From positions 1 to 33,370 of the forward strand of contig JAJRYC010000015.1 in assembly GCA_024275975.1 (NCBI GenBank): DNA of 33,370 nucleotides, in the 5' to 3' direction. Under the pieces are notes generated by a model. That model was given only the letters and a program-made list of their open reading frames with translations. It made no database searches and was not told where the DNA came from. The DNA comes from Nitrospirota bacterium (GTDB lineage Bacteria; Nitrospirota; Thermodesulfovibrionia; Thermodesulfovibrionales; UBA6898). The position numbers were made by a program, and so were the translations under genes. This document shows, piece by piece, positions 481 to 33,370 of this stretch; positions within the stretch are counted from its first letter, which is position 1; every line of letters begins with the position of its first letter.

Positions 481-493
481 GCTGTATAACCAG

Positions 494-525
494 TTATTAG
501 ACAGTTTATTAGTCCGTTATTAGTC
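494..525. repeat. Three phased copies of TTATTAGWC, candidate attI
   Basis: Copies lie at 494-502 (TTATTAGAC), 506-514 and 517-525 (both TTATTAGTC), spaced 12 and 11 bases, about one helical turn. They sit just downstream of the leftward promoter. In known integrons this is the position of attI, which carries integrase-binding direct repeats beside the crossover core. Assignment to attI is inference; a repressor operator is the alternative. Confidence 0.45.
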
Positions 526-535
526 AGTCACGTAA

Positions 536-564
536 AGTATAGCAAAAAGGCTTTATTCGGTCAA
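536..564 (-). promoter_or_regulatory. Leftward sigma-70 promoter, candidate cassette promoter Pc
   Basis: On the minus strand TTGACC (564-559) and TATACT (541-536) are separated by exactly 17 bases. It fires towards position 1, away from intI, as the cassette promoter of an integron does. Predicted start is near 529, just before the phased repeats. Confidence 0.6.
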
Positions 565-580
565 TGTCCTGAAGGAATTA

Positions 581-609
581 TTGACATATATGTTGAATAT
601 CATTATACT
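581..609 (+). promoter_or_regulatory. Sigma-70 promoter of intI
   Basis: TTGACA at 581-586 and TATACT at 604-609 with a 17-base spacer is close to consensus. The predicted start (about 616) falls inside the TTAGT-TG-ACTAA palindrome at 613-624. It is back to back with the leftward promoter at 536-564. No convincing LexA box was seen. Confidence 0.65.
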
Positions 610-618
610 TTGTTAGTT

Positions 619-646
619 GACTAATATGCATTTTTGGATATTAGTC
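619..646. repeat. Perfect 9-bp inverted repeat in the intI leader
   Basis: GACTAATAT (619-627) and ATATTAGTC (638-646) are exact inverted copies 10 bases apart. They share the TATTAGTC core with the three direct repeats at 494-525. The repeat lies in the predicted 5' leader of intI, so it could be an operator or an mRNA hairpin. A second palindrome, TTAGT-TG-ACTAA, overlaps at 613-624. Confidence 0.7.
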
Positions 647-662
647 ATACACTTGTAATTCA

Positions 663-2075
663 ATGCAGCCGATACCAAGCGATATTTTGACGCAATTCGA
701 GGCCGTTCTGAAAAGAAGGTCAGTGCCTCTTTCCAGCCATGTGGATTACAGAAAGTGGCTGCGGTATTATCTAGACTTCCGCAGTAAATACCCGCTTCCT
801 GATTCCCGACCGGAACAAGTGCGTTTGTTCATTCAAGAATTGCGGGAAAAGAAACAAACGCCTGTACAGCAGAAACAGGCTGCTCATGCGTTGTCTCTTT
901 ATTTTGAGAGTCTGCAAAAAATAGATAATAAAATCCCTCCTGCTCAAATCAATACTGAAAAGATAGTAATGGCAACAACCCCTTCCACTCCTCGAAGCGA
1001 GTCTACGGTCGATACTGCTAAACTTCGAGTCGCTTCGCCCCTTATTAAGGGGAAATCTTCCAAACTGTCCAGTAGTCGTTTTAACAAATGGCGGTGCCTG
1101 GAGAAATCAGAATCACCTGACTGGGACAAGATAATAGATAATCTTGCCGCAGAGATCAAAATGCGGCACTATTCACGAAAAACGCTCAAGGCTTATGCGG
1201 ACTGGACCCGTAAGTTCCAGGGCTTCCTGCATAATAAGCTTCCCGATGAATTGTCGGACACTGATGTGAAGGCGTATCTTACGTATCTTGCAGTAAAATG
1301 CAAGGTTGCCGCATCAACGCAGAACCAGGCGTTCAACGCTATATTGTTTTTATACCGGCACATTCTCAAAAAAGACTTCGGCGACCACAAAGACATTCCC
1401 CGCGCAAAGAAATCAAAATATATCCCTGTCGTTCTTTCAAGGCGTGAAATCGACGCTGTCCTGAAACATCTTTCACATCCCTATGATCTGGCGGTCCAAC
1501 TCCTGTATGGCTGCGGGCTTCGTCTCTTTGAATGTGTGAATTTACGGGTGAAGAATTTCAATTTCGACGCCGGTATCCTTACGTTACATGGAAAAGGCAA
1601 TAAAGACCGTACAGTGCCGATTCCCCAGAAGATCGTGCCGGAGTTAACATCACAGTTTGAGCTAATAAAAAAACTTCATGATGAGGATCTTGCGGCTGGG
1701 TATGCGGGTGTCTTTCTCGAGGACCAAATTGAAAAGAAATATCCGAAAGCCACAAAGGATTTTATATGGCAATGGTTTTTTCCACAGCAGTCGTTGACTT
1801 TCGTGGAGGGTACAAGGGAACTGCGACGCTATCATCTGCATGAAACACACATCCAGTTGGCGCTTTACGAAGCGGTCCGCCGCGCCAAACTCACCAAGCG
1901 AGTCACGTCCCATACCTTCAGGCATAGTTTCGCCACGCACCTTTTGCAGGCAAATTACGACATCCGCACCATCCAGACTCTGCTCGGCCACAGCAACATT
2001 AGGACGACTATGATTTATACTCATTGCGTGCCGAGCAGGACTTTAAAGGAAGTAAAAAGCCCGCTGGATTTTTAG
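663..2075 (+). CDS. intI: Integron integrase with an extra N-terminal core-binding domain
   Basis: Tyrosine recombinase of 470 residues, about 130 longer than the usual IntI (320-340). Catalytic residues are visible: R287, K311/K314, H417, R420, H443 and nucleophile Y452. H417, R420 and Y452 lie exactly 140 residues after their IntI1 equivalents and R287 lies 141 after. The integron-specific insertion is present at about 345-391 (GVFLEDQIEKKYPKA, then RRYHLHE), and the C terminus KSPLDF matches the RSPLD ending of IntI proteins; this separates it from XerC/XerD. Two SAM-like core-binding domains are seen (about 1-85 and 153-240), joined by a Ser/Thr/Pro linker encoded by palindromic DNA. It would insert and excise cassettes at attI/attC. 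Start is the first ATG after the promoter; no good Shine-Dalgarno is visible. Confidence 0.9.
   Translation: MQPIPSDILTQFEAVLKRRSVPLSSHVDYRKWLRYYLDFRSKYPLPDSRPEQVRLFIQELREKKQTPVQQKQAAHALSLYFESLQKIDNKIPPAQINTEKIVMATTPSTPRSESTVDTAKLRVASPLIKGKSSKLSSSRFNKWRCLEKSESPDWDKIIDNLAAEIKMRHYSRKTLKAYADWTRKFQGFLHNKLPDELSDTDVKAYLTYLAVKCKVAASTQNQAFNAILFLYRHILKKDFGDHKDIPRAKKSKYIPVVLSRREIDAVLKHLSHPYDLAVQLLYGCGLRLFECVNLRVKNFNFDAGILTLHGKGNKDRTVPIPQKIVPELTSQFELIKKLHDEDLAAGYAGVFLEDQIEKKYPKATKDFIWQWFFPQQSLTFVEGTRELRRYHLHETHIQLALYEAVRRAKLTKRVTSHTFRHSFATHLLQANYDIRTIQTLLGHSNIRTTMIYTHCVPSRTLKEVKSPLDF
993..1052. repeat. Palindromic block inside intI (interdomain linker)
   Basis: Two stem-forming units lie within the coding sequence: an 11-bp imperfect inverted repeat (CGAAGCGAGTC at 993-1003, GAGTCGCTTCG at 1027-1037, one mismatch) and a perfect palindrome CCCCTTATTAAGGGG at 1038-1052. 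They encode the low-complexity linker between the two core-binding domains (about residues 111-130). This looks like an in-frame inserted palindromic element. Confidence 0.6.
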
Positions 2076-32296: not shown

Positions 32297-33370
32297 TTAT
32301 TGCATATAATCCAATATCCGCTCACATATTGCCGCTGACGAAAAAGGTCTGCCCAGCCTCAAGGCATTCTTCTTTAACTCAAGAAGTCTGTCACCTCTCC
32401 CGGAAAGGAAAGAAATCTTCTGTAACAGATCTTCACTGTCTCTCGCGAAGAGCGCGGCACCTTCATTCACAAGAAAATCGACGTTAAAGAACTCCTGTCC
32501 GGGGATCGGGTCGAATATAACCATCGGGAGTCCTGCTGCAAGCGCCTCTGACAAAGTAAGTCCGCCGCCCTTCCCTATGATCAAATCAGACGCCTGCATC
32601 AGCCGGGACACATTCTCCTCATAACGCAGAGGTATAAGATTGCTGTATTTCAGAGCAAGTTTTTTAACGGAATTGTAAAATCCTTCATTTCCGCCGGTGA
32701 CCGCAACTATCTGAATGTTTAATCCGCATAACCCTGGGAGGATGTTTTTAGTTATATTCCTTGTTTTTCCCATTAAAAGGACTGTAAACATTTCAGACAG
32801 GTCTAAATCACTTCTTGTATTTGCAGTGTCATATTTTATTGAAAACTGTTCTCGTACAGGTATGCCTGTAACACTTATGGCGCTTTCAGCCACGCCCTTA
32901 ATGGTCAGCTCTTTCTTCACCTTTTCATCAGCTACGAAATACATATCTATATAATCCTTGACCCATGTCCTGTGAACACCAAAATCGGTTATCACGGAGA
33001 AATACCTGAATTCGTTTTTTTTTCTGATCCGTTCTATTTTTCCGGATATTGGGAAAGTCGCTATCACTGCATCGGGCATTTCCTCCGACAAAAACGCTTC
33101 AAGTCCCCTGATGCCGATCCTGTCAATTTCCTTTGTAATTGCTTCCGACGAAACATCATTCGTAGCAGTAAAAAAAGCACCGTACGCCTTCGGAATTTTT
33201 TTTATACTTGTGTCATACATGAACCTTACACAGGAGTTTAAGAGATAACTTATTAGACCACGCCGCATAGCCAGTATTGACGGTACTTTAGCTGCGCACC
33301 GGTTGTAAGACCCCACTGTCATCCACATAGTGGCCAAAGGCTGATAGGACTTCGGCTTGGGTCTTCGTGG
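32297..33370 (-). CDS. MGDG-synthase-like glycosyltransferase, 5' end not resolved
   Basis: A GT28/MurG-fold enzyme related to processive diacylglycerol glucosyltransferases and MGDG synthase. The acceptor half contains FSVITDFGVHRTWV and FVADEKVKKEL; the donor half has VTGIPVR, VLLMGKTRN and the UDP-sugar-binding block LMQASDLIIGKGGGLTLSEA, LAAGLPMVIF, typical of the family. The reading frame is open to the window edge; the first start codon inside is TTG 33337. The usual N-terminal glycine-rich GxGH loop is not visible; VGSYNRCAAKV is the closest. The upstream 40 residues look poor, so the true start or a mutation may lie at or beyond the edge. It would make membrane glycolipid. Confidence 0.8.
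   Translation of the reverse strand, partial: PRRPKPKSYQPLATMWMTVGSYNRCAAKVPSILAMRRGLISYLLNSCVRFMYDTSIKKIPKAYGAFFTATNDVSSEAITKEIDRIGIRGLEAFLSEEMPDAVIATFPISGKIERIRKKNEFRYFSVITDFGVHRTWVKDYIDMYFVADEKVKKELTIKGVAESAISVTGIPVREQFSIKYDTANTRSDLDLSEMFTVLLMGKTRNITKNILPGLCGLNIQIVAVTGGNEGFYNSVKKLALKYSNLIPLRYEENVSRLMQASDLIIGKGGGLTLSEALAAGLPMVIFDPIPGQEFFNVDFLVNEGAALFARDSEDLLQKISFLSGRGDRLLELKKNALRLGRPFSSAAICERILDYMQ

Follow-up and report, generated by a model that had tools for sequence, protein, structure and literature searches.

Nine-base repeats at attI and in the intI leader of a Nitrospirota integron: candidate binding sites of a two-domain integrase

Layout of the locus and its repeats

The window, by which we mean the whole stretch of 33,370 nucleotides analysed here, is one complete contig (C80) of a 2.51 Mb genome in 111 contigs. 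At its left end lies intI (663-2075, plus strand), which was assigned from TIGR02249 and a structure model as an integron integrase of 470 aa with two core-binding-like domains. A consensus scan predicted two divergent promoters upstream of the gene, pointing apart: Pint, TTGACA-17-TATACT, at 581-609 on the plus strand and Pc, TTGACC-17-TATACT with TG before the -10, at 536-564 on the minus strand. Most relatives carry a Pint-like promoter at about -84. The predicted attI core covers 484-502 on the minus strand with the crossover predicted on the 484-490 side; both were assigned by eye from the core of the relatives and not by script. On the minus strand it reads ...CTAATAAC-TG-GTTATAC, and its R side, GTTATAC, does not fit GTTRRRY. 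We identified no attC in the window, whose sequence beyond attI runs for 480 bp to the contig end. An Rfam scan gave no match above the gathering scores.

The 9-mer TTATTAGWC had been reported in the initial annotation in three direct copies across 494-525. All three match exactly, their starts following each other at 12 and 11 bp: copy 1 (TTATTAGAC, 494-502), copy 2 (TTATTAGTC, 506-514) and copy 3 (TTATTAGTC, 517-525, at about +5 of Pc), each on the plus strand. The triplet thus lies just downstream of the predicted Pc, and an inverted repeat lies just downstream of the predicted Pint. This leader repeat of 28 bp (619-646, about +4 to +31 of Pint) is a predicted operator on the basis of comparison and covariation. 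Its perfect 9-bp arms, GACTAATAT at 619-627 and ATATTAGTC at 638-646, are as annotated, and the arm differs from the 9-mer at the first base. The palindrome TTAGT-TG-ACTAA (613-624), which had been placed across the intI start site, lies over the predicted transcription start (about 616) and not over the start codon at 663. It overlaps the left arm of the inverted repeat and is by eye absent from the leaders of near relatives.

Across the whole window the 9-mer with one mismatch is not over-represented: there are 11 matches compared to 15.5 expected, and 89 of 100 shuffles gave at least as many. GACTAATA/TATTAGTC occurs four times in 420-662, a number reached in 7 of 2000 dinucleotide shuffles. 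The unusual feature is the clustering of the 9-mer, not its window-wide abundance. A fourth exact 9-mer at 33250-33258 was rejected as unrelated, as it falls within the terminal part of a multi-copy element found at contig edges. In the same genome (G000), many contig ends have TTATTAGAC at a distance of 109-120 bp (305 in C86), namely the window (33231-33370), C37, C56, C74, C85, C86, C98, C101, C102 and C110. The three ends that we compared (window, L003, L008) have common sequence around it, so the assembly breaks there at a multi-copy element that is probably an insertion sequence.

The integrase and its extra N-terminal domain

IntI matches TIGR02249 with 386 bits (cut-off 265) over profile positions 1-313 of 315. 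R287, H417 and R420 are invariant across 72 sequences and H443 and Y452 are present in at least 90%; we take these five to be the catalytic residues of a tyrosine recombinase. Intact reading frames were found in 67 of the 74 loci examined, a share that says little about how frequent live integrases are because the loci had been selected for their resemblance to intact integrases.

Residues 1-92 (663-938, plus strand) form an extra N-terminal domain, assigned as a second core-binding-like domain from Pfam, profile and fold. They match PF13495 (E 3.9e-9), as do 37 of 37 members. The extra-domain profile also picks up these proteins' ordinary core-binding domain; a BLASTP comparison of the window protein's two core-binding-like domains against each other gave no match. 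Modelled in full length (mean pLDDT 85.6), the protein shows a four-helix domain at 6-89 and a low-confidence linker at 93-140, followed by the core-binding and then the catalytic domain; the best PDB match of this model is IntI4 (2a3v). Modelled alone, the domain reached a mean pLDDT of 87.7 and best matched the core-binding region of IntI4 (TM 0.68 by query, probability 0.99, E 0.19), with XerA, Cre and lambda core-binding domains among the next matches. On these models the extra domain is best described as a second core-binding domain. A lambda-type arm-binding domain was rejected, since the modelled fold is four-helical and not beta-stranded and its best matches are core-binding domains.

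Pieces resembling the extra domain alone occur elsewhere in the same genome (L163 in G000:C108, and C39, C4 and C17). They are probably intI remnants, some with stops. At L163 an open frame of about 100 aa (reverse strand, about 4257-3950) lies next to an attI-like site that carries the word CTGTATATC/GATATACAG. In another Nitrospirota family a different N-terminal stretch of ~100 aa, PYSPDHVAKIKT..AGRRWH...HWTVP, precedes the core-binding domain in L130, L134 and L140 and likely also in L132, L133 and L135-L137; it has no Pfam match.

The repeats across related loci

The comparison set consisted of 86 loci: the window, five full-length relatives from the same family (L010-L014) and 80 loci obtained by scanning named genomes (L039-L118). 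Five loci without a usable start (L046, L087, L091, L100, L104) were left out, and 59 of the remaining 81 had a TTGAC-type Pint and enough upstream sequence. Removal of L070, a duplicate of L014, left 58 leaders, and 33 loci also had a recognised attI core.

A leader repeat just after the Pint -10 was observed in L010, L012, L039, L040, L042, L043, L049 and L112 and in degenerate form in L011, L045 and L089. It was not seen in L114 or in L013, L014, L041, L047, L048 and L066, the latter six of which have the extra domain. In more distant integrases this position is occupied by an inverted repeat with a different sequence, and in many lineages the inverted pair lies about 110-140 bp from the attI core. 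Perfect 9-bp arms occur in 12 of the 58 leaders (100 shuffles: mean 0.11, maximum 1) and arms matched at 8/9 or better in 19 (mean 3.06, maximum 7), though these 58 include many related loci and by eye represent about six independent words. The control region, the 50 bp before the -35 region, contained neither (0 perfect, 0 at ≥8/9). We aligned 15 34-mers, including three from sites where intI has been lost. Both sides had changed, in compensating fashion, in 9 of 14 pairs, and the covariation was 0.382 compared to 0.169 in shuffles, while sliding gave no more than 0.120.

Such covariation is stem-like, and the leader also gives a stable RNA fold (z = -3.67), as would be expected if the repeat were an RNA hairpin in the intI 5' leader and the attI copies a separate matter. 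However, DNA palindromes show such covariation too, and the half-site recurs in attI singly or in tandem, unpaired, so that we regard a hairpin as very unlikely. A dif-like 11-6-11 reading of the 28-bp repeat was noted and not adopted.

Single-domain integrases, too, can have inverted repeats near their genes. Among 27 single-domain loci, whose starts, like the position rules of the analysis, were assigned by script, seven had an inverted repeat of at least 8/9 in the last 130 nt compared to 2.3 expected; in the Pint leader itself none was found (0/16). Remote two-domain Nitrospirota loci had a repeat of at least 8/9 in 2 of 21 cases, not above chance (3.0 expected). A single-domain intI from Nitrospirota, L144, carries a 32-bp inverted repeat, CCTGATAAC...GTTATCAGG, immediately before TATAAT.

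On the attI side, the core common to the relatives, AACCAGTTATTA and variants, corresponds to window positions 488-499. It follows that copy 1 (494-502) doubles as the L arm of attI; its GTTATT part is common to relatives without the motif. Copies 2 and 3, extra half-sites beside attI, recur partly altered in L010 and in the intI-less sites L124 and L125, the place of copy 3 being taken by CTTAGTC in L010 and by GTATTAGTC in L124. Other near relatives have one single different sequence where the window has these two copies. As such the triplet is found in the window and L010, and in part at L124 and L125; by this comparison it is lineage-specific. Conservation beside homologous integrases, on which the initial annotation had staked the motif, thus extends to the leader repeat, which is kept in near relatives, but not to the tandem triplet. 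Most other lineages have an attI with one half-site in the opposite orientation (orientation judged by eye). Direct repeats beside the core, an attI1-type trait, are present in the window (494, 506, 517).

In many loci the half-site of the leader recurs in the locus' own attI, about 20 bp from the core start. Examples matched by eye are L085 (CTGCATAAC), L082 (CTGTATAG), L086 (CTGTATAAG), L103 (GATATCAT) and L057 (GGCCAACA). For the 33 loci the leader matched its own attI better than the attI of other loci at all three word lengths: 7.45 compared to 6.81 for w=9 (p = 5e-5), 8.36 compared to 7.72 for w=11 (p = 1e-4) and 9.36 compared to 8.53 for w=13 (p = 5e-5), p values that, like those of the other sharing tests below, are optimistic because related loci are not independent. 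The best own match fell inside a position box, picked post hoc from these same matches, in 14 of the 33 loci (mean 1.74 and at most 5 in 300 permutations). We repeated the analysis on new loci with the rules fixed beforehand. After removal of seven fetched duplicates of the first set, 34 two-domain loci were left, of which seven qualified. Four of the seven fell in the box compared to 1.43 (p = 0.009; w=9 p = 0.022, w=11 p = 0.050), a count that retains three loci (L022, L207, L213) whose core or promoter is doubtful by eye. In the single-domain gammaproteobacterial control an attI core was recognised in 0 of 27 loci and therefore only the inverted-repeat half was run.

The window and L010 are outside the box, as their attI copies are oppositely oriented and in tandem. 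This misfit to the common position and orientation counts against the reading that IntI recognises the copies.

These results also bear on whether the likeness is one of chance between AT-rich sites, or of shared ancestry alone. In favour of this are the identity of GTTATTA with the attI core, the lack of window-wide enrichment of the 9-mer, and the borderline outcome (p = 0.07 and 0.048) of a cruder sharing test without promoter anchoring (30 loci). On the other side stand the clustering seen in so few shuffles, the double occurrence repeated in L010 and the replication on new loci, and we consider this explanation extremely unlikely.

Several sites carry the repeats with a much reduced intI or none. 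Intact-looking 'orphan' sites of this kind, taken as proof that the repeat is part of attI, lost weight: L121 and L123 are integrons with intI cut to 12 and 5 codons, and these remnants weaken the argument, leaving L124 and L125. The site at L119 lies at a contig end. L124 and L125 (G020:C20 and C121, around 1501-1570) are two copies of one unit in a single genome, in which the inverted repeat and one or two direct half-sites adjoin the attI core, without intI or Pint. At L157 (G005:C173, 15414-16489) an attI-like site with a leader repeat is accompanied by an intI reduced to 12 codons and by a pair of identical attC-like repeats of 77 nt, spaced 859 bp apart; in G005 we found no integron integrase over 1e-60.

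Candidate binders and comparison with known systems

We compared the words of integrons that occur in the same assembly. L042 (GACTAATAT) and L098 have different words, as do L086 (CTGTATAAG) and L106 (TGATATCAT), whereas the words of L094 and L096, whose integrases are 88% identical, agree. In the pair L090/L114 the latter carries a LexA-type box, and the pairs L061/L069 and L067/L116 were left out of the word comparison. The word GACTAATAT is shared by assemblies that carry the labels Nitrospirae, Nitrospinae and Deltaproteobacteria. In the window's own genome intI is the one place with the exact inverted repeat, and in 27 genomes of the family it stands at 7 places in 6 genomes, all seven by eye beside intI or an attI-like site; a reversed control pattern occurred at 0 places in these 27 genomes. 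From these comparisons the word goes with the integrase rather than with the host.

The initial annotation had seen no usual SOS box, and indeed none of six LexA-type patterns, including GAACN4GTTC and CTGTN8ACAG, matches upstream of intI in the window. LexA was rejected as the binder, as the genome's own lexA has GAACATTCGTTC upstream and this box is absent at intI. Across the 81 loci CTGTN8ACAG was not found, and GAACN4GTTC was found in two (L114, at Pint, and L089). A Geobacter-type LexA pattern matched two loci (L052, L116). L077 has one further LexA-type pattern far upstream. L114, L052 and L116 carry their LexA-type box at Pint, and no integrase-type repeat was seen in these three. In L114, a two-domain intI, GAACN4GTTC lies at -49 between the predicted -35 and -10 and resembles the box of the lexA of the window's genome. 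A CTG(T/C)N8(A/G)CAG box was present in 5 of the 27 single-domain loci of the gammaproteobacterial sample.

A host repressor binding both places would agree with the operator-like geometry, with the inverted repeats near the start of single-domain intI genes, and with the binding of LexA to the intI promoter in other integrons (PMC8946536, PMC3108266). Two integrons of one assembly with different words argue against it, and it also has to accommodate one word shared by assemblies labelled as three phyla or classes, an exact repeat confined to intI in its own genome, and a lexA box of another type. We consider such a repressor distinctly unlikely.

Alternatively, the sites may be purely accessory recombination sites through which IntI builds or steers the attI complex, with no role in regulation. 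There is a precedent in attI1, which has extra IntI1 sites: IntI1 is reported to bind its repeats DR1 and DR2 (PMC8946536, PMC12901181). Furthermore, at L124 and L125 the inverted repeat adjoins attI and no Pint was found between them. Against a purely accessory role stand the fixed place of the inverted pair just after the Pint -10 in many lineages, some 110-140 bp away from the core, and the LexA-type box that L114, L052 and L116 hold in that promoter region instead. We regard it as unlikely.

We think it somewhat probable that the integron's own integrase binds the repeats, recognising them most likely through the extra core-binding-like domain, and that they serve as operator and as attI sites; the enzyme would then probably control itself instead of being governed by the usual DNA-damage switch. 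The proposal in the initial annotation that one protein, perhaps IntI with its second domain, acts at both places is upheld in part. In its favour are a leader repeat that is conserved and drifts with compensating changes, a half-site in the own attI, a word that follows the integrase and an extra domain that is core-binding-like. The tandem copies are not conserved as such, though, copy 1 is part of the attI core, and the attI of most lineages holds a single, oppositely oriented half-site. Also counting against it are the inverted repeats near single-domain intI genes, their scarcity in remote two-domain relatives and absence from six loci that have the extra domain, and the borderline result of the unanchored sharing test. 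What the sequences show directly is that the repeats exist, that they are conserved and drift together, that the integrase has a second domain and that a LexA box is lacking.

If IntI is the binder, the protein made from Pint would bind the inverted pair via its extra domain and thereby block Pint; a steric block fits because the operator lies at about +4 to +31. The same domain, on its long flexible linker, could take the half-site beside attI. Half-sites beside attI and under Pc would bring IntI to the recombination site; this may assist its positioning on the core and may also interfere with Pc. Changes in the extra domain would force both sites to change, which would explain their joint drift. 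We infer the binder, the domain used, the repression and any effect on Pc. A partial Mantel test that might have singled out the N-terminal domain as the reader of the word was not decisive, as the catalytic domain links too: leader similarity correlated with the extra domain at 0.14 (p = 0.001), with the catalytic domain at 0.19 (p = 0.0005) and with the ordinary core-binding domain at -0.10, so that its link to the catalytic domain is no weaker than that to the extra domain. More tentatively still, a widespread family of integrases might have duplicated its core-binding domain and gained from the copy a sequence-specific self-switch that also reads accessory attI sites, with word and protein co-evolving and a private regulation replacing LexA control.

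LexA is held to control integrase expression, and where this control is lacking the integrase is described as often inactive (PMC8946536). If the proposal holds, the integrase would supply the alternative regulator whose exploration Cambray et al. 2011 called for, with a concrete candidate at hand in the predicted 28-bp operator, the extra domain and the lineage-specific words. Searches of an open-access library on integron integrases listed no title or abstract describing these sites (other integron literature: PMC8876359, PMC5559693, PMC3414803). Long integrases were noted in 2008: in clade 15 of Nemergut et al., from Deltaproteobacteria, IntI is about 120 aa longer, attributed to one gene fusion (PMC2426708). 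Matched by this description, clade 15 is probably the same family as the window's IntI; the portion of PMC2426708 consulted names neither the domain nor cognate DNA sites, and self-control would give these long integrases a purpose.

Like LexA/SOS-controlled intI genes, the locus has an inverted-repeat operator at Pint, here a predicted one; unlike them it has no LexA-type box and its word follows the integrase, not the host. The attI of class 1 integrons resembles it in the extra repeats beside the core (DR1/DR2), repeats that are absent from most attI sites according to the passages of PMC8191803 consulted. The present locus differs in having its word as an inverted pair at Pint too, in a word that changes from lineage to lineage, and in the two-domain integrase that accompanies it. 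Integron integrases have been placed among the simple recombinases (PMC8138268). With lambda-type integrases the window's IntI would share a second N-terminal DNA-binding domain, here predicted, and accessory sites near the core (PMC8138268), but its extra domain has, on the model, an all-helical core-binding fold in place of a beta-stranded arm-binding one.
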